The notes beneath the pieces are model-generated. The model was not told the DNA's origin. It did not search any database and saw nothing but the letters and a program-made list of their open reading frames with translations. A program made the translations under genes and the position numbers. A stretch of 44,134 nt of DNA, from the IMG/VR virus record IMGVR_UViG_3300047181_000115, positions 1-44,134 of that record; one strand, written 5' to 3'. Positions 749 through 42,018 of this stretch are shown piece by piece. The first letter of the stretch is position 1; each line of letters starts with the position of its first letter. The stretch is from a virus.

Positions 749-1231
749 ATGATGGGGTGGTTGCTCCTCTCGGGGCTCGCCGCCACCGTCGCGTGGAGGA
801 TCGCCTACCGGTTCTTGCTGGTGAAGCGGTACGGCGGTAACCGGGTCGACACGGACGAGGTGCACCGGCGGATGCGTGAAGGAGAGGACCTCCTCGTCAT
901 CGACCTGCGACGCGACGACGATTTCGACGCCTCGGAACGAATGATCGCCGGGGCGGCGCGGTTGCGGCCCGCGTCGTTCCACAGGCACGCCATGCACCTC
1001 CCGCGGGACCGCGACCTGGTGTTCTACTGCACCTGACCGGGTGAGGCCACCAGCGCCAGTCTGGCGCGGATCCTCATCCAGCGGGGGTACGACCGGGTGG
1101 GAGTGCTCCACGGCGGGTTCGACGAATGGGTCCGGCGGGACCTTCCCACGCAGCCCAAGACGGAGGAGGTCCGCCTGCACGAAGATGGAGTCTCTCCGGA
1201 GGATCCGCTCGTTTCAAACAGTTCCGCTTGA
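749..1231 (+). CDS. Membrane-anchored rhodanese selenoprotein (UGA at 1034-1036 read as selenocysteine)
   Basis: Read with TGA 1034-1036 as selenocysteine, the frame gives a 160-residue protein. One transmembrane segment (residues 3-20) leads to a rhodanese domain. The active-site loop reads FYCT-U-PGEATSA, where related sulfurtransferases have Cys in the U position, and the sequence continues in frame through LARILIQRGYDRVGVLHGGFDEW, the conserved C-terminal half of the domain. Ending at the TGA would remove the catalytic residue and half of the fold. A SECIS-like hairpin follows at the right distance. Rhodaneses move sulfur (or selenium) between thiols through a persulfide on the catalytic residue. 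The start is uncertain: ATG 749 is the first ATG in this frame after the thioesterase gene, preceded by AGGGG; TTG 662 is possible. The gene looks like the surviving 3' part of a DedA-rhodanese fusion, so it may not be expressed normally. Confidence 0.8.
1041..1077 (+). promoter_or_regulatory. Bacterial SECIS element
   Basis: Directly after the in-frame TGA the RNA can form a two-part stem. The outer stem pairs GUGAGG (1041-1046) with CCUCAU (1072-1077). The inner stem pairs GCGCCA (1053-1058) with UGGCGC (1062-1067), leaving the loop GUC. The apical GU begins 23 bases after the TGA, close to the spacing in E. coli fdhF, whose loop also reads GUCU. Such hairpins recruit SelB to insert selenocysteine. 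Confidence 0.82.
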
Positions 1232-1277: not shown

Positions 1278-1353
1278 TCCCTGGTAGCTCAACCGGCAGA
1301 GCGGGTGGCTGTTAACCACTAGGTTGCAGGTTCGAGTCCTGCCCAGGGAGCCA
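1278..1353 (+). tRNA. tRNA-Asn (anticodon GTT)
   Basis: A full cloverleaf with encoded CCA. The acceptor stem pairs TCCCTGG (1278-1284) with CCAGGGA (1343-1349), the D arm is GCTC/GAGC, the anticodon stem GGTGG/CCACT encloses CTGTTAA with anticodon GTT, and the T arm pairs GCAGG with CCTGC around TTCGAGT. G1350 is the discriminator base and CCA ends at 1353. The prophage begins in its 3' half. Confidence 0.97.
1312..1353. other. Probable left attachment site (attL) in the 3' half of tRNA-Asn
   Basis: The recombinase gene on the minus strand runs without interruption into the tRNA gene. Its last 13 codons and stop are the antisense of the tRNA 3' half, giving the C-terminus WLPGQDSNLQPSG, a familiar sign of integrase genes abutting a tRNA. 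Everything to the left is chromosomal and everything to the right is phage-like. The exact crossover core cannot be fixed because attR is outside the window. Confidence 0.65.
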
Positions 1354-2865
1354 GATGTTACAGTCTGCGAACCGTCGTGTATTTGGTAACCCATACCAAA
1401 CCTCGATGGTTTGACGACTATGGATAAGCACCTTCTTCACCAGCCGGTGGAGGAGGTGCTTCTTTTTTGGGTTGGGCCCTTCGGCCATCACCTTCTCGAA
1501 GTTGTCCACGATGGATGTGAGCATCTCCCGGTCGATGGCCGGCAGCTCCAGCCGCTCCCGCCTGGCCTCCAGCCCTCGCTTTTCACCCTCCAACTCCTCC
1601 ATCCGGGTGCGTAGGTTCCGGACCTTCTCGTTGCAGAGTTCCGCCTTCAGCGTCCCGGCTTCGAAGGCCTCGAAGTACCGGTCGATGGCCCCCTGGGTCT
1701 TGGTCATCTGCCCCTCGATCCGGGCGATTTCCTTCTCCAGGTCCGGCTTCTCGGCCCCGAGCCGTTTATTTGCTTCCTCCCAGATCCGAGCCATGAACGG
1801 CTCGTCCCGGAACATGTTCTTGACGTCCTCGATGATTGCCATTTCGAGGAGTTCGGCCCGCACGTAGTCTTGCTCGCAATCGTGGTCATTGAAGCGTTTC
1901 GAGCAGACGTAATACGGGACGCGGACGCCTTTCTTGGTTCCTGAGGCCCCGAACATATTGCTCTTGCACTTGGCGCATTTGATGATCCCGGTGAGGAGCC
2001 GCTCGTCGCCGTTGTGGAACTGACGACCCTTTGACTCCTCGTGACGTGCCTCGAGGACCTCCTTGGCCTTCTCGAAGATGATGTCGGACACGAGAGGGTC
2101 GTGATGCCCCTCGTATAGAACCTCTCGCCAGCGTATCTTTCCCACGTAGACCGGATTCCTTAGCATGTGGAGGACGACGCGCCGGCCCCACTTCCGGCCG
2201 TTCCGGTTGCGGTTGCCGGCCTCATTGATTTGCTTGCAGATCGCAGACGAGCCTTCCTTCCCGAACGTATACATCTGGAACATCTTCCGGACGATGAGCG
2301 CCTCGTCCTCGTTGATAACCAGGCCCTTCTCCGGGTCGAGCAAGAAACCGTAGGGAACGTTCCCGCCCACGAATTTGCCGGTCTTGGCCTTCTTTTCCAT
2401 CCCGACCTTCGTCCGCTCGACGATGGTGGCATGTTCGAACTCGGCGAAGACGCCCAGCATCTGGAGCATCATCTTTCCGGCGGCGTTGGCGGTATCGAAC
2501 GGCTCGGTGATGCTTTTCAGCGCGACCCCGTTCTTTGTGAGCTCGTCCACCATTTGGGCAAGCTCGCGAACCTTGCGGGATAGGCGGTCCACCCGGAATA
2601 CGAGGAGGGTGTCGAAGGCCCGGGCTCCGACGTCGAAGAGCATCTCTTCGAGCCCGGGCCGGTTCATGTGGGTTCCGGATTCGGTGTCCCGGTAGAGCTT
2701 GTGGAGCCGCCAGTCGTCCCCGTACTGCGCCTTGCAGAAGGCCTCCAGCCGTTCCGACTGGGCTCCGAGGGAATATTTCTGGTGGTCCTCGTCGGTCGAG
2801 ATGCGGGTGTAGAAGGCGACTCGGGTCACCTGGCCGTTCCCGCCGGCATTTTGCGTCTTGGCCAC
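1312..2865 (-). CDS. Serine recombinase (prophage integrase) with zinc-ribbon and coiled coil
   Basis: A 517-residue large serine recombinase. The resolvase domain comes first, with the catalytic serine in YTRIST (Ser23) and the arginine motif FRVDRLSR. Then come the Recombinase domain (VPYGF..., RNPVYVGKIRW), a zinc-ribbon beginning CAKC with later Cys residues, and a long charged coiled coil (about residues 370-460). This domain order is typical of enzymes that integrate and excise mobile DNA by double-strand breakage through a Ser-DNA link. GTG 2865 was chosen because AGGAG lies just upstream and the resolvase domain starts soon after. The gene is last in a four-gene leftward operon, eight bases after the RAMA-like gene, and it ends inside the tRNA. 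Phage integrases that use tRNA genes are mostly tyrosine recombinases, so a serine enzyme here is less usual. Confidence 0.93.
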   Translation of the reverse strand: MAKTQNAGGNGQVTRVAFYTRISTDEDHQKYSLGAQSERLEAFCKAQYGDDWRLHKLYRDTESGTHMNRPGLEEMLFDVGARAFDTLLVFRVDRLSRKVRELAQMVDELTKNGVALKSITEPFDTANAAGKMMLQMLGVFAEFEHATIVERTKVGMEKKAKTGKFVGGNVPYGFLLDPEKGLVINEDEALIVRKMFQMYTFGKEGSSAICKQINEAGNRNRNGRKWGRRVVLHMLRNPVYVGKIRWREVLYEGHHDPLVSDIIFEKAKEVLEARHEESKGRQFHNGDERLLTGIIKCAKCKSNMFGASGTKKGVRVPYYVCSKRFNDHDCEQDYVRAELLEMAIIEDVKNMFRDEPFMARIWEEANKRLGAEKPDLEKEIARIEGQMTKTQGAIDRYFEAFEAGTLKAELCNEKVRNLRTRMEELEGEKRGLEARRERLELPAIDREMLTSIVDNFEKVMAEGPNPKKKHLLHRLVKKVLIHSRQTIEVWYGLPNTRRFADCNIWLPGQDSNLQPSG

Positions 2866-2873
2866 GGTGGCTC

Positions 2874-3281
2874 CTAGTTGCCCACTTTGCGCAGCATGTT
2901 GAGCTTCTTCAGGCCGTTGCCGGGGACCTCGTAGCTCCAGAAGGTCCACCCGTCCACCTCGCGGCCTGTGACCTCTTTCCCGGCGCGGGAAGGGCTGTTG
3001 AAGGTCTTGCCGTTGACCGTGATCGTCCCGTCCTCGTTGACCTTCGCCTTGAGCTCGGTCCCCTTGTACGTGACCACCAGTTCCTTGGGGGCTACCTTGA
3101 GGGAGGCCAGCGCGGGGGTGCGCTTGCCGGCCTTCTTCTCAACCGGCGTCTTCGTGGCGGTTTTCGCCTTCTTGCCAGTCCCCTTTTTCGCCGTCTTCGG
3201 TTTTGTTTCCGGCATCACCCAGGTCTTTCCGTCTGCGCTCTTGCTGGTCTTCTGTTCCGTGGCGTTCTTTTTCTTCGTCAT
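2874..3281 (-). CDS. Lys-rich protein with C-terminal RAMA/DUF2924-like domain
   Basis: A 135-residue protein. Residues 1-55 are a Lys/Thr-rich, probably disordered tail. Residues 65-125 form a compact domain with the pattern YKGTELKAKVNEDGTITVNG, then FNSPSRAGKEVTG and GWTFWSYE. This matches the RAMA and DUF2924 type of small domain, found with DNA methylases and beside serine recombinases. A role in binding DNA and assisting the recombinase is plausible from position but not shown. The start has a strong AAGGAGGTG site upstream. The gene lies four bases after the zinc-binding gene and eight bases before the recombinase start, so the three are surely co-transcribed. Confidence 0.7.
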   Translation of the reverse strand: MTKKKNATEQKTSKSADGKTWVMPETKPKTAKKGTGKKAKTATKTPVEKKAGKRTPALASLKVAPKELVVTYKGTELKAKVNEDGTITVNGKTFNSPSRAGKEVTGREVDGWTFWSYEVPGNGLKKLNMLRKVGN

Positions 3282-15906: not shown

Positions 15907-16111
15907 CTGGCTCGTTGGTAAAAAGGCGGTGGCGAATGCGCTCGGGGTGAGCGTGAGTACCCTTAAACGGTACCTGAAGCGGTATCCGGATTTTCCGGCG
16001 CATGGGCGTGGAGGGACGATCTTTGTGTCGCCGGCGGCGCTCGCGGCGTGGGTTGAAAATCGAGCGATCAAGAAGTGCCTAACTTGCGGTATTGGAATCC
16101 CGTTGGTATAA
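15899..16111 (+). CDS. Small HTH (excisionase/Nu1-like) protein at the island border
   Basis: A 70-residue protein with a MerR/excisionase-like winged helix: WLVGKKAVANALGVSVSTLK, then RYLKRYPDFPAHGRGGTIFVSP, the recognition helix and wing. Roles could be excisionase, a small regulator, or a Nu1-type DNA-binding subunit. TTG 15899 is the likely start: GGAGG lies eight bases before it, whereas ATG 15884 has no spacing for a ribosome site. The last dozen residues (KKCLTCGIGIPLV) fall where base composition changes to AT-rich, so the C-terminus may have been replaced when the island inserted. Confidence 0.6.
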   Translation: MSDWLVGKKAVANALGVSVSTLKRYLKRYPDFPAHGRGGTIFVSPAALAAWVENRAIKKCLTCGIGIPLV

Positions 16112-16181
16112 AGTATTTCAATGTGTTAAATCGAGTTTGCCTTGGCTCCCCGAATTTAAAGAAAAAGAGGTTGTTAACACT

Positions 16182-17513
16182 ATGAATGTACTCTTTATAT
16201 CTGAGGATTTGGTAGCCGGCAACCTGGCGTATCTTTTAAGTAACGAAGGTCACGAGGTCAAGCTTTATATTAAAGATAGAGGTAGACGGGATAATTTTGA
16301 AAATTTAGTGCCCAAAGTACAGGACTGGAAAAAAGAACTTCGATGGGTGGGCAAGAAGGGATTGATTGTTTTTGACAGTTGCAGCCACGGTAAAATACAA
16401 GATGACCTTCGCAGGGAAGGTTATTCTGTAGTCGGTGGCTGCGAAATAGGGGATAAACTGGAAAACGATAGGGTATTCGGGGCTGGGATATTTAAACTCT
16501 ATGGAATGCAAACAGTTCCACAATTCAATTTTAAAAGTATTGATGCTGCAATCCGATTTATTAAAAAGAGGAGAGGTAAATGGGTAATTAAGCAGAATTT
16601 TTCAGGCACTGGTCTTAAAAGTTTTAACTATGTTGGAATATTAGAAAGTGGCGATGATGTAATTAACGTACTGAATAATTACAAGACACATTATAAAATT
16701 ATTAATACAATAATTACTCTCCAACAGAAAATTGACGGAGTTGAAATTGCTGCAGGTAGATATTTTAATGGAAGCGATTGGATTAGCCCAATTGAAATGA
16801 ACATAGAACATAAAAAATTATTTCCTGGTGATTTAGGGCCGTCTACAAGTGAAATGGGGACTATTGCTTGGTACGACAATGATGAAAACAATAAACTATT
16901 CAAAGAAACATTGGGCAAATTAAAGCCATTTCTTATAGATATAGGTTTTAGAGGAGATATTGATATTAATTGTATCGTCAATGATAAAGGAGCTTTCCCC
17001 TTAGAGGCAACAGCACGTTTTGGCTCGCCGATAATCCATCTACATAGTGAGATTCATTCATCCCCTTGGGGTGAATTTTTAAAGTGCGTAGCCGACGGGC
17101 GTACCTACAAATTGAGATGGAAAAAAGGATTTGGTATCGTAGTCGTTGTTACAGTTCCAACAAGCCAGCCTTTTCCATTTACAAAATCAGAAAGATATAT
17201 TTCACCGAAAGGCCTGAATATATATTTTAGCGATAAAATAAAGAAGGGAGGAAAGCTAGATCATATCCATTTTGAAGACGTTTCGATGAGATTTCATAAT
17301 CGCGAAAAACAATATTATATTTCAGATGATCGAGGATATGTTCTTTACGTGACAAGTATCGGTAAAACTGTGGAGGAAGTGAGAAAAAAAGCGAATATAT
17401 TGCTAAATAATATTTATATTCCCAAGATGTTCTTTAGGAATGATATAGGAATCAGATTTCTTACAGAGGACGCGGCAAAACTCGAAAAATGGGGATACCT
17501 AAATACTATATAA
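16182..17513 (+). CDS. PurD-like ATP-grasp enzyme of the AT-rich cassette
   Basis: A 443-residue ATP-grasp protein. A Rossmann-like pre-ATP domain opens it (MNVLFISEDLVAGNLAYLL); the ATP-binding lysine lies in WVIKQNFSGTG (residues 134-144); STSEMGTIAW corresponds to the TGGMG loop of PurD; and PLEATARFGSP (273-283) to the metal-binding E-x-N-x-R-F-G-D-P motif, here with Thr in place of Asn. PurD joins glycine to phosphoribosylamine, but these changes and the cargo context point to another carboxylate-amine ligation; the substrates are unknown. ATG 16182 has AGAGG upstream. The gene is strongly AT-rich, unlike the phage genes, and converges with the decarboxylase gene (eight-base overlap of the 3' ends). 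Confidence 0.82.
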   Translation: MNVLFISEDLVAGNLAYLLSNEGHEVKLYIKDRGRRDNFENLVPKVQDWKKELRWVGKKGLIVFDSCSHGKIQDDLRREGYSVVGGCEIGDKLENDRVFGAGIFKLYGMQTVPQFNFKSIDAAIRFIKKRRGKWVIKQNFSGTGLKSFNYVGILESGDDVINVLNNYKTHYKIINTIITLQQKIDGVEIAAGRYFNGSDWISPIEMNIEHKKLFPGDLGPSTSEMGTIAWYDNDENNKLFKETLGKLKPFLIDIGFRGDIDINCIVNDKGAFPLEATARFGSPIIHLHSEIHSSPWGEFLKCVADGRTYKLRWKKGFGIVVVVTVPTSQPFPFTKSERYISPKGLNIYFSDKIKKGGKLDHIHFEDVSMRFHNREKQYYISDDRGYVLYVTSIGKTVEEVRKKANILLNNIYIPKMFFRNDIGIRFLTEDAAKLEKWGYLNTI

Positions 17514-20825: not shown

Positions 20826-22145
20826 ATGAACGTTGCGATGGTCGACATCCAGCGGGTGATCCCATACGCCCGCAATCCCCGGAAGAACGAGCTCGCGGTG
20901 GCCAAGGTGGCCGCCTCCATCAAGGAGTTCGGTTGGCGGCAGCCGATCGTCGTCGACAGTGAAATGGTCATCGTCGTCGGACACACCCGGTACCTGGCAG
21001 CCATGCAACTCGGGATGGAGAAGGTTCCGGTGCATGTGGCCGAGGGTTTGACCCCGGAGCAGGTCAAGGCGTACCGGATCATGGATAACCGATCGCATGA
21101 GTCTTCAGAGTGGGACGACTCGCTCCTGGCGATCGAACTGACCGAACTTAAAGATGCTGACTTCGACATGGATCTGACGGGGTTCGATGATGACGAACTC
21201 GCCGAGAAGTTGGCAGCTGGGATCGTGGGGACGGCGGGGCTAACCGATCCCGACGAGGTGCCAGAACCACCTGATGATGCGATCACGCAGCCGGGGGACC
21301 TGTGGATCTTAGGCGACCATCGCCTTCTGTGTGGGGACAGCAGCAGTGTGGCGGACGTTGATTACCTGCTCGGTGGGGCGACGATCCACCTGGTCAACAC
21401 CGATCCGCCGTACAACGTGAAGGTCGAGCCCCGCAGCAACAACGCGATCGCCGCCGGGAACAGCTCGTTTTCTAAGACGCATCACCAGAGCCTGGACCTC
21501 GCCCTTCATCCGGGGAAGGACAAGCCGACCACCAAGAAGATGCGGCCTAAAGACCGGCCGCTGATGAACGACTTCGTCTCTGACGAGGCGTTCGAGAAAC
21601 TCCTTCAGGCGTGGTTTGGGAATATCTCCCGGGTGCTGGAGCCGGGGAGGGGCTTCTACATCTGGGGCGGGTACGCCAACTGCGGGAACTATCCGCCGGT
21701 CTTGAAGGAGAACAAGCTCTACTTCGCGCAGGCGATCATCTGGGTAAAGGAGCACCCGGTCTTAACGCGCAAGGATTTCATGGGCAATCATGAATGGTGT
21801 TTTTATGGTTGGAAAGAAGGCGCTGCACACCACTGGCTGGGCCCCACGAACGCCACCGACGTCTGGTCGGTGAAGAAGGTCAACCCCCAGAGCATGATCC
21901 ACTTAACCGAGAAGCCGGTGGAGTTGGCGGTCCGGGCGATGCAGTACTCCTCGAGGCCCGGTGAAAACGTCCTGGACCTCTTCGGCGGGAGTGGATCGAC
22001 GCTGATCGCCGCGGAACAGACCGGCCGAAAGTCCTTCCTCATGGAGATCGACCCACCGTACTGCGACGTCATCGCGCAACGTTACGAGAACTTCACTGGC
22101 AAGAAACCCGAGAGGGTCCCGCGTGGCGAGCGCGTGGCTGTTTAA
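20826..22145 (+). CDS. ParB-like domain fused to DNA N-methyltransferase
   Basis: A 439-residue fusion. Residues 1-90 are a ParB/Srx-like domain (IPYARNPRKNE, VVVGHTRYLAAMQLG, the nucleotide-binding G-H-x-R motif). Residues about 150-430 are an N6-adenine or N4-cytosine methyltransferase: the catalytic DPPY in NTDPPYNV (about 194) comes before the SAM-binding DLFGGSGSTLIAAEQTG (about 382), the beta-class order. LTEKPVELA is the usual motif before it. Such genes beside the terminase are common in temperate phages; they probably protect phage DNA from host restriction or mark it for packaging. RBS AAGAGG lies before ATG 20826. Confidence 0.9.
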   Translation: MNVAMVDIQRVIPYARNPRKNELAVAKVAASIKEFGWRQPIVVDSEMVIVVGHTRYLAAMQLGMEKVPVHVAEGLTPEQVKAYRIMDNRSHESSEWDDSLLAIELTELKDADFDMDLTGFDDDELAEKLAAGIVGTAGLTDPDEVPEPPDDAITQPGDLWILGDHRLLCGDSSSVADVDYLLGGATIHLVNTDPPYNVKVEPRSNNAIAAGNSSFSKTHHQSLDLALHPGKDKPTTKKMRPKDRPLMNDFVSDEAFEKLLQAWFGNISRVLEPGRGFYIWGGYANCGNYPPVLKENKLYFAQAIIWVKEHPVLTRKDFMGNHEWCFYGWKEGAAHHWLGPTNATDVWSVKKVNPQSMIHLTEKPVELAVRAMQYSSRPGENVLDLFGGSGSTLIAAEQTGRKSFLMEIDPPYCDVIAQRYENFTGKKPERVPRGERVAV

Positions 22146-38749: not shown

Positions 38750-39850
38750 ATGCCATATATCGCATTGAACGATTCGGAGATCCAGTCGGGCGAGCCGATC
38801 TCGCAATCCCTGGTGCAGAAGATCAAGGAGAACTTCGACGACCACGAGGCGCGGATCGCCGGGGGCGGGGGTGGCGGAAGCGTTAGCGGCGGCGGAGATG
38901 TGCTCAACGGGTCGCTGGAAGCGGATGCCGATGCGGACGGAGTCCCGGACAACTTCCTCGTTTCATACTACCCGGGAGGGACCGGCGGGTTCGACACGGC
39001 CGACTACGTCCACGGGACGAAGTCGTGGCGATTCGACCTGAACGGCGGGGCGAATACCGGAGGCGGATACCTGGAGACGGATTACATCTTCGTCAACAGG
39101 TTCTACTGCAAGCCGATCTGGCTGGCGTACAAGGCGGAATCGACCTCCGGCATCCCGCGAGTGCAGGTCATCGCACGGTGCTTCGACCGGAACAAGGCGT
39201 ACCTCGGAGAAGTGACCATTTGGGACACGGTCACCCATCTGTCGGGTTGGAACCTCGCGGTGATCCACAACATCACCTTATCCTTCATTGAAACCGAATA
39301 CGTGAAATACCGGCTCGTCGGCGGGGCGGTGGATGCGGCGGGAGTCGTGGGGTCGGTCTGGTTCGACGCCATCGGAATTGAAGGATACAGGATGCAGGTC
39401 ACGGTCCCAGAATCCATCAACCAGCCGGATGTTGCTGTGTCGATGGGGGGATGGAGCGCGGCCGGCAGCGTTTTCAACATCAATATCCCGGCGGGGAAAT
39501 TCCAATGGCTCGTAGTTCCCGTAAGGGCCATCGGGACTTTGCAATGGGTTGGGGAATCCGAAGCTTCCTATCCGACGAGAATCCGGTGCTACATAGACTC
39601 GGCGTACTCCACGGTGGTCGAGTCTCCCACAAATCAATGGGTTACGGGGAACTGCCTACTCTATATCGGGGGGATGGCCGGGGCGAAGCAGTTGCGATTT
39701 CAGGCGAGTGGAGCTGACTCTTACGGCTGGTATTGGGGAGGTCAATTCGGATCTCCTTCGTCCTTTCGAAAGTTCTACGCCACGAATTTTCGCGACGTGG
39801 ATCATGGGGCGGGAACGGAAACCAACACGTACGTGAAGCCGGCGGTTTAG
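38750..39850 (+). CDS. Putative tail fibre with carbohydrate-binding-like domain
   Basis: A 366-residue protein. It begins with MPYIALNDSEIQSGEPISQSL, then a coil and a Gly/Ser linker (GGGGGGSVSGGG), then a jelly-roll-like domain of the carbohydrate-binding type (about residues 50-225: VLNGSLEADADADGVPDNF, GTKSWRFDLNGG, VWFDAIGIEG) and a C-terminal beta domain. The opening pattern is common in proteins next to siphophage tail hubs. Function as side fibre or adhesin is inferred from domains and position. GGGGAAGAG precedes the ATG. Confidence 0.65.
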   Translation: MPYIALNDSEIQSGEPISQSLVQKIKENFDDHEARIAGGGGGGSVSGGGDVLNGSLEADADADGVPDNFLVSYYPGGTGGFDTADYVHGTKSWRFDLNGGANTGGGYLETDYIFVNRFYCKPIWLAYKAESTSGIPRVQVIARCFDRNKAYLGEVTIWDTVTHLSGWNLAVIHNITLSFIETEYVKYRLVGGAVDAAGVVGSVWFDAIGIEGYRMQVTVPESINQPDVAVSMGGWSAAGSVFNINIPAGKFQWLVVPVRAIGTLQWVGESEASYPTRIRCYIDSAYSTVVESPTNQWVTGNCLLYIGGMAGAKQLRFQASGADSYGWYWGGQFGSPSSFRKFYATNFRDVDHGAGTETNTYVKPAV

Positions 39851-39942
39851 AGGGAAAAACTTGCGCTTGCGGGCGAAGTGCCACGAGGGGATGTGGACGG
39901 TATTGGCGGCTTTATAGCCATTTATTTCGAGGTGAAGGCATC

Positions 39943-42018
39943 GTGGCCGAAATAACATCATTACGCACCCGGTACTCAAAGACGTTCGACCTCGGGGGAG
40001 GGGTGCGCCAGGAAGTCGTCGGCGCGGCTCCGATCCACTACCCGGACGCCAACGGCGCATACCAGGAGATCGACAGCAACCTCAAAGCATCCTCCGGCGG
40101 GTATGGTTGGGAGAACTCCGCCAACGAGTTTTCCGCCAAGTTCAAGGCGAACTTGAACGATGTCGCGCCGATCACTTTCACCCGCGGCGGGGTGACGGTG
40201 TCCTTCCGTCCACGCGGTATCGCGCTGTACGACAGGAAGTTGAACGCCTATACGATCATCGCCCAGCCGAGCAATACCGCCCCCACGGTTAGCGGGCGGG
40301 AGATCCTTTTCCCCAACCTGTACCCCACCGTGGATGCGGCGTATCAGATCGGACCCACCGGCATCAAGGAGTTCATCCGGGTGAAGGCGGGGGCGAACGT
40401 CCCTTCACCCGCTACCTACGGATACGATCCCGCGACGACGTACCTCGTGATGGCGACCGAGATCACGATTACGGGCGCGGATTCGTATCAGGACGAACTC
40501 GGTGCGTTGACGCAGACCCGTGACCTCGGGAAGATCGCCTTCATAAAAGGTGGAGTGGCGCAGTTCTCCATCCCGGAATTGCTCGGATGGGAAGGCAATG
40601 GAGCTGTAAAGAACGTCCTGAAGAAACGCCTGAAGATCGTCGGTGGGAAGCCGTACCTGCTTCATGGGATCGAGTACGCGATGTACGCCGCCGCCACGAA
40701 GTTCCCTTATGTCCTCGACACCACCGCGCAGTACGACACAGGATCGGGGAGTTGGGCTTGCCCGAGCGGTGTCACCTCCGTTCAGATCGAATGCTGGGGT
40801 GGAGGCGGGCGGGGCGAGGACGGGACCGGTGGTCCCGGTGGTCTGGGTGGCGGTGGCGGAGCGTATGCGAAGAAGAACTCCCTTGCGATCAGCTACCCGA
40901 ATACATACGCCTATTCCGTTGGGGGAGAGCAAGCGGCCAGCTGGTTCAAAGACACCGCCGGAACGAAAGCATGTGAGTCGGTCGGTGCGAATTATCAGAC
41001 CGGCGGCGCGTCAGGTAGTTGTACCGGCGATGTAAAGACAAGCGGATCAAATGGCGGTGATAGTACAAATGAGTACGGCGGCGCGGGCGGCTCAAGTCCC
41101 AATGGTGGAGTCGGCGGTGCGGGTGGCGACCCCGATCAGAATGGTATCGACGGCTATCCCCCCGGTGGCGGAGGGGGCGGAGGCGGCGGCGATTGGGGCA
41201 ATGGTGGGGCGTACGGCGGATACGGAGCAGCCGGAAGGATTTTGCTTACCTATGCGAGCGGAGGGACGAATTATACGCTACCCGCAAGCAGCGGTTCTTT
41301 TACGGAGACAGGCACCGCCGTCGGACTAAAGGTTGGCCGCAAGGTAGTCGCAGTTTCAGGTGGTTACGTTGAAACCGGAACAGCCGTTTCGCTGAAGTGT
41401 GGGCGGAAAGTAGCGGCGGCCTCGGGCGCATTTACTTTCACTGGCTCGGCGGTAGCGTTCCCGAGGACATACCGGGTAGCGGCGGCGGTTGGATCCTATG
41501 CCGAAACGGGCACGGCGGTCCTGCTGAAATGCGCAAAGCTACTTGTTACGGGCGCAGGGGCATTCTCGCTCGCGGGAACGGATGCGGGATTAAGGGCCGG
41601 GCGCAAGGTTGCGGCAGGTTCTGGAACGCACTCCTTCATGGGACAGGATGTTGCGCTGATCTACACGCCAGTCGGTGTGTACATCCTCACTGCTGGCGGG
41701 GGCGCATACCAGTTGACGGGGCAGGATGCGGCGTTCCGTGCGGCGAGGTTGATCGGGGCGATATCGGGATCATTCGTGGAAACCGGTGCCGGTGTAACAC
41801 TGCGCAAGGATTCGCATCTCGGGGCCGGCGCCGGTTCCTATGCTCTTACGGGATCGGATGTGGCATTCATCCACGCGGCGACCGGTGATTCCCTTCTTCC
41901 GGCGGATCCGGGGGCCTTCATCCTGACGGGCTATCCGGCGTCGATGGTGAAATTCGGGATTCTACCCGGTCGCGGGTACAGGTCCACGGGGCCGCGCACT
42001 GGGCATATCTCGAATTAG
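39943..42018 (+). CDS. Glycine-rich adhesin/tail fibre with 22-residue repeats
   Basis: A 691-residue protein. Residues 1-255 form a beta-rich domain (MAEITSLRTRYSKTFDLGGG, then APIHYPDANGAYQEID), a pattern also seen at the start of large secreted wall-associated proteins. Residues 270-440 are a Gly-rich domain (VQIECWGGGGRGEDG..., long GG runs), like phage adhesins with polyglycine helices that bind receptors. Residues 450-680 are about ten 22-residue repeats such as SGSFTETGTAVGLKVGRKV. GTG 39943 has GAGGTGAAGG upstream; the frame is open further upstream, so the start is not certain. Confidence 0.72.
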   Translation: MAEITSLRTRYSKTFDLGGGVRQEVVGAAPIHYPDANGAYQEIDSNLKASSGGYGWENSANEFSAKFKANLNDVAPITFTRGGVTVSFRPRGIALYDRKLNAYTIIAQPSNTAPTVSGREILFPNLYPTVDAAYQIGPTGIKEFIRVKAGANVPSPATYGYDPATTYLVMATEITITGADSYQDELGALTQTRDLGKIAFIKGGVAQFSIPELLGWEGNGAVKNVLKKRLKIVGGKPYLLHGIEYAMYAAATKFPYVLDTTAQYDTGSGSWACPSGVTSVQIECWGGGGRGEDGTGGPGGLGGGGGAYAKKNSLAISYPNTYAYSVGGEQAASWFKDTAGTKACESVGANYQTGGASGSCTGDVKTSGSNGGDSTNEYGGAGGSSPNGGVGGAGGDPDQNGIDGYPPGGGGGGGGGDWGNGGAYGGYGAAGRILLTYASGGTNYTLPASSGSFTETGTAVGLKVGRKVVAVSGGYVETGTAVSLKCGRKVAAASGAFTFTGSAVAFPRTYRVAAAVGSYAETGTAVLLKCAKLLVTGAGAFSLAGTDAGLRAGRKVAAGSGTHSFMGQDVALIYTPVGVYILTAGGGAYQLTGQDAAFRAARLIGAISGSFVETGAGVTLRKDSHLGAGAGSYALTGSDVAFIHAATGDSLLPADPGAFILTGYPASMVKFGILPGRGYRSTGPRTGHISN
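41290..41960 (+). repeat. About ten 66-bp coding repeats (22 residues) in the adhesin
   Basis: Unit pattern: (S/A)G(S/A)(F/Y)xxTGTAVxLKxGRKVAAx. Most units are 22 residues; two are 26. They diverge in DNA, and several keep the TG-x-AV/DA core. Similar repeats occur in other phage tip proteins. Confidence 0.75.

Follow-up and report, generated by a model that had tools for sequence, protein, structure and literature searches.

A predicted selenocysteine rhodanese in host DNA beside a prophage, from a probably broken DedA fusion gene

Described rhodanese selenoproteins and the locus

Rhodaneses with a C-x-U motif have been predicted as selenoproteins before: the NCBIfam family NF041203 (rhodanese_LYCAU, "rhodanese-related (seleno)protein") is listed as "Rhodanese-like form 3, CxU" in a 2026 review (PMC13188914), and CxU rhodanese appears among the predicted selenoproteins of unclear function (PMC9312934). 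Fusions of DedA and rhodanese domains (COG0586 with PF00581) have also been reported, their purpose being unclear (PMC10127716; PA1209 in PMC12893004). In these fusions the domain order is the one described here, VTT/DedA and then rhodanese, but the rhodanese carries Cys where ours has Sec; the passages on them in these two papers do not mention selenocysteine. TsoB (NF045694), a rhodanese/DsbD fusion-like selenoprotein, likewise joins a Sec rhodanese to a membrane part, but has two Sec in a UxxxxU motif, and our sequence reaches 36 bits against its cut-off of 805. Escherichia coli GlpE and other single-domain rhodaneses share the fold and align without a gap at the active-site position; unlike them, the protein described here has a C-x-U pair, a modelled helix directly after the Sec and a membrane link. 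We found no description of the DedA fusion as a selenoprotein in the literature, which is weak evidence of novelty since subscription papers were mostly outside the search.

The locus lies at the left end of a virus record of 44,134 nucleotides (IMGVR_UViG_3300047181_000115), called the window here. Its frame at 749–1231 reads ...DLVFYCT-TGA-PGEATSASLARILIQRGYDRVGVLHGGFDEWV... and is closed by a second TGA at 1229–1231. With the first TGA taken as a residue (Sec96 counted from 749, two residues after an invariant Cys94), the frame matches Pfam Rhodanese at 7.4e-11, in agreement with a preliminary description in which the rhodanese was seen to continue past an in-frame TGA. The best family match is NF041203 (3.8e-30), which shares the domain, the C-x-U motif and the position of the Sec; the sequence FYCTU fits the broader motif [LF]YC-x-U but differs from LYCAU, and the window and its relatives are set apart by fusion to DedA, most of which the window copy has lost. 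The window scores 104.1 bits and its relatives 91–104, below the curated cut-off of 115, and by sequence comparison this group is a close sister group of NF041203 and no member by NCBI's own threshold. The features of the locus are as follows.

220–648, + strand: host hotdog-fold thioesterase gene (TIGR00369, 2.1e-28; Pfam 4HBT; same neighbour upstream of the fusion in relatives)
652–688, + strand: native start of the DedA-rhodanese gene (MDDFAALVARCG...), severed by the deletion (alignment with the intact gene starts of L185 and L186)
683–689, + strand: junction of a 413-bp out-of-frame deletion in the DedA transmembrane part (413 extra bases in L185 and L186)
689–1231, + strand: remaining open frame, with the last DedA transmembrane helix and the Sec rhodanese, stop TGA 1229–1231 (identity to L185; Pfam Rhodanese; NF041203)
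1034–1036, + strand: predicted UGA codon for selenocysteine (TGA at the same codon in at least 118 loci and the nine closest complete relatives)
1053–1067, + strand: predicted upper stem-loop of a bacterial SECIS, with 1059 as the apical G (covariation, frozen synonymous sites, folding energy)
1278–1353, + strand: host tRNA-Asn(GTT), prophage attachment site (ARAGORN; tRNA flanks in relatives)
1312–2949, − strand: prophage large serine recombinase, the integrase (Pfam Resolvase, Recombinase and Zn_ribbon_recom; PHROG 95 integrase, 1.5e-123)

The UGA codon, its hairpin and the decoding machinery

A degenerate DNA pattern run against about 85,000 genomes detected at least 118 loci with TGA at the Sec codon, the TGA being there by construction because the pattern required it in the motif. 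In all of the loci listed, which span Acidobacteria, Rokubacteria, Deltaproteobacteria, Beta- and Gammaproteobacteria, Chloroflexi and others, the rhodanese frame is open before and after the TGA and contains a YCxU motif. A protein search made without the TGA requirement covered 198 genomes from the phylum to which the closest match belongs. It revealed TGA in all nine of the nearest relatives whose sequence is complete there; its best matches contain one TGA each, and a few Cys homologues occur at greater distance. The alignment across the TGA that the preliminary description had proposed as a check places Cys at the UGA position in two homologues (L132 and L146), which read CDCPNEASS there. 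Both sides of the TGA are under purifying constraint (pN/pS 0.25–0.53 downstream), and a chance TGA was ruled out by conservation. Searches of viral contigs by protein and by Sec motif returned no real relatives (L001 and L002 were chance pattern matches), while tblastn found no match in phages and three distant rhodaneses in plasmids.

The predicted SECIS hairpin begins 16 nt 3' of the TGA and consists of GCGCCA (1053–1058), a GUC loop with the apical GU at 1059–1060, and UGGCGC (1062–1067). Across 123 distinct homologues, 96.7% of cells in its five pairs are paired (shuffles 83.7%, maximum 85.9) and 56 double changes occur (shuffles 8.9, maximum 17). Columns 22 and 23 were fixed and column 20 restricted by the search pattern, which predetermines part of the 5' side of three pairs; the 3' partners are free of that constraint. 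The same geometry slid to other places gave at most 58.5% pairing. The apical G is invariant in the 123 sequences, and the next base is U (100) or G (23). Among nine close sequences the hairpin codons are nearly without synonymous change and the neighbouring codons vary, with synonymous sites frozen in seven of eight hairpin codons versus 3/23 and 4/15; the folding energy has a z of −3.26 relative to codon shuffles. Covariation thus bears out the upper part of the two-stem hairpin with apical GU that was first described, but the outer stem, present in the window and in only some relatives, is no general feature. Rfam at its threshold gave no match over the TGA and found the tRNA alone.

With the window itself being a virus record, selenocysteine machinery was counted in the genomes of relatives. 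In the nearest family (24 genomes) selB was detected in 18 and selA in 21, and both genes are present in all nine host-family genomes with a complete Sec rhodanese. Three genomes (G223, G224 and G226) have no selA, no selB and no Sec rhodanese gene, absences whose weight is limited by the incompleteness of the genomes. All 12 gene-bearing genomes picked from a wider set contain selB, and tRNA-Sec scored above the cut-off in 19 of the 23 genomes tested. In most family genomes (G111, G210, G215, G001, G225 and others) selD contains a TGA in frame, and selenophosphate synthetase is therefore probably a selenoprotein itself in the host's family. The TGA conservation, the constraint on both sides of it, the covarying hairpin, the Cys homologues and the selA, selB, selD and tRNA-Sec genes of that family agree with the original proposal of Sec in a rhodanese, and comparatively selenocysteine in the CxU rhodanese gene family is well supported. 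Such proteins had been called few and little explored; the existence of a curated family at NCBI and of clearly more than a hundred loci speaks against the former, and the latter stands, as we found no biochemical test of CxU rhodanese selenoproteins in the literature.

Host origin of the gene and probable loss of its DedA part

The gene order in relatives is thioesterase, DedA-rhodanese, tRNA-Asn. Similarity to unoccupied relatives stops at the 3' end of the tRNA-Asn (1353) and the large serine integrase then begins, so the comparison identifies the Sec rhodanese as host DNA flanking the prophage and not as prophage cargo. We rejected a phage-encoded selenoprotein because the gene is left of the attachment site and syntenic in unoccupied genomes. 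The sequence 3' of the tRNA-Asn is different and terminator-like in L186, L192 and L196, and window-like in L185 and L187. Sequence 74–78% similar to window positions 1278–2949 was observed at the same tRNA in no fewer than three related genomes (L185, L187 and L189), which makes this tRNA-Asn a repeated integration site. No second copy of the tRNA end was found elsewhere in the window, which thus does not take in attR. Further into the phage, positions 20826–22145, directly before the terminase gene, hold a gene whose N-terminal part matches a ParB-like nuclease and whose C-terminal part matches a DNA methyltransferase in PHROGs, and two large frames (39733–42018 and 16092–17513; 761 and 473 residues) have no PHROGs match.

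Along its whole length the frame 689–1231 shares 79% identity with L185. Intact relatives have an open frame of 320–432 codons, in L185 and L186 with a VTT/DedA domain before the rhodanese, an arrangement found in 57 of 118 Sec loci among the matches listed. The 413 bp missing from the window are not a multiple of three, so the frame from the native start at 652 stops after 62 codons; most of the VTT/DedA domain is gone, the last helix is left, and the window copy does not qualify as a DedA-rhodanese by its domains. Position 749 is an internal Met of the fusion gene. The preliminary description was therefore right about the Sec rhodanese and the frame within 749–1231, but took 749 as the start where homology points to 652, and overlooked that the rhodanese forms the end of a DedA fusion from which 413 bp are missing out of frame, and that it belongs to the host DNA flanking a prophage. 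The window copy is broken, shortened or misassembled, and we consider it probably broken.

We are confident that this is the Sec half of a host DedA-rhodanese whose UGA is read as Sec in intact relatives, in a copy that has lost 413 bp and has a prophage next door. The gap might instead be an assembly error in a host with an intact Sec DedA-rhodanese, given that the record is metagenomic, that the remaining part has no further stop or frameshift and a dN/dS of about 0.28 versus L185, and that the gene is intact in relatives; however, the roughly 6–7 shared bases at the junction (GCGGGG) are short for an assembler join and resemble an ordinary slippage deletion, which leaves such an error somewhat unlikely. 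A shortened gene in use, restarted at ATG 749/752 to give a Sec rhodanese of 160 residues that has a single membrane helix, is improbable: the frame is open, the UGA and hairpin are intact and AlphaFold models a confident rhodanese (pLDDT 90.5) whose N-terminal helix is long (residues 2–29), but AGGGGATGATG is also present in intact L185 and so did not arise as a start, and the Shine-Dalgarno-like bases are poorly spaced. That the TGA at 1034 is a true stop followed by a dead remnant might be suggested by the disruption upstream in the window, yet the TGA and the downstream protein are kept in more than 100 loci of several phyla and the hairpin covaries, and we give this reading almost no credence.

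The C-x-U pair and its membrane partner

The model aligns with solved rhodaneses at Z up to 17.3, and phmmer places residue 96, ungapped, on the active-site Cys both in GlpE and in 6mxv. In the likeliest alignment Sec96 thus takes the position of the catalytic Cys, as had been proposed, a picture complicated by the invariant Cys two residues upstream. Cys94 could itself be the rhodanese cysteine, with Sec96 a resolving partner off the sulfur-accepting position: its invariance would fit, as would the model, where a strand ends at residue 93 and a helix starts at 97, right after U96. Set against the ungapped phmmer placement, we find this doubtful, and a selenenyl-sulfide pair of Cys94 and Sec96 likely.

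The host bacterium would belong close to the genome family of the Deltaproteobacteria isolate FeB_35. Decoding of the UGA as Sec by the ribosome in intact relatives would proceed through the hairpin, SelB and tRNA-Sec, as the machinery and covariation suggest, and would yield a DedA (VTT) membrane domain that carries a C-x-U rhodanese domain. U96 is most likely the nucleophile, which may accept sulfane sulfur or become oxidised, with C94 then resolving it as a selenenyl-sulfide. The native protein would not be made as such from the window copy, because 413 bp of the DedA part are lost out of frame, and the fragment would have come to lie within a viral record because the prophage occupies the adjacent tRNA-Asn. 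At other loci (L006, L025, L039, L065, L066, L069, L071, L082, L086, L097 and L112), a Sec CxU rhodanese ends a non-DedA frame of 440–510 residues, possibly a multi-domain rhodanese.

The locus illustrates two traps of annotation, a UGA taken as a stop and host genes within viral records. Comparison supports the predicted selenoprotein family and adds to it more than 100 loci and a clean alignment of the SECIS. Of the CxU rhodanese selenoproteins among the loci listed, about half form the C-terminal domain of a DedA membrane protein; we tentatively suggest that a selenoenzyme is thereby fused to a putative undecaprenyl-phosphate flippase, which it might control by redox or sulfur state. The DedA fusion makes it testable why a Sec rhodanese would be carried on a proposed lipid-carrier flippase.
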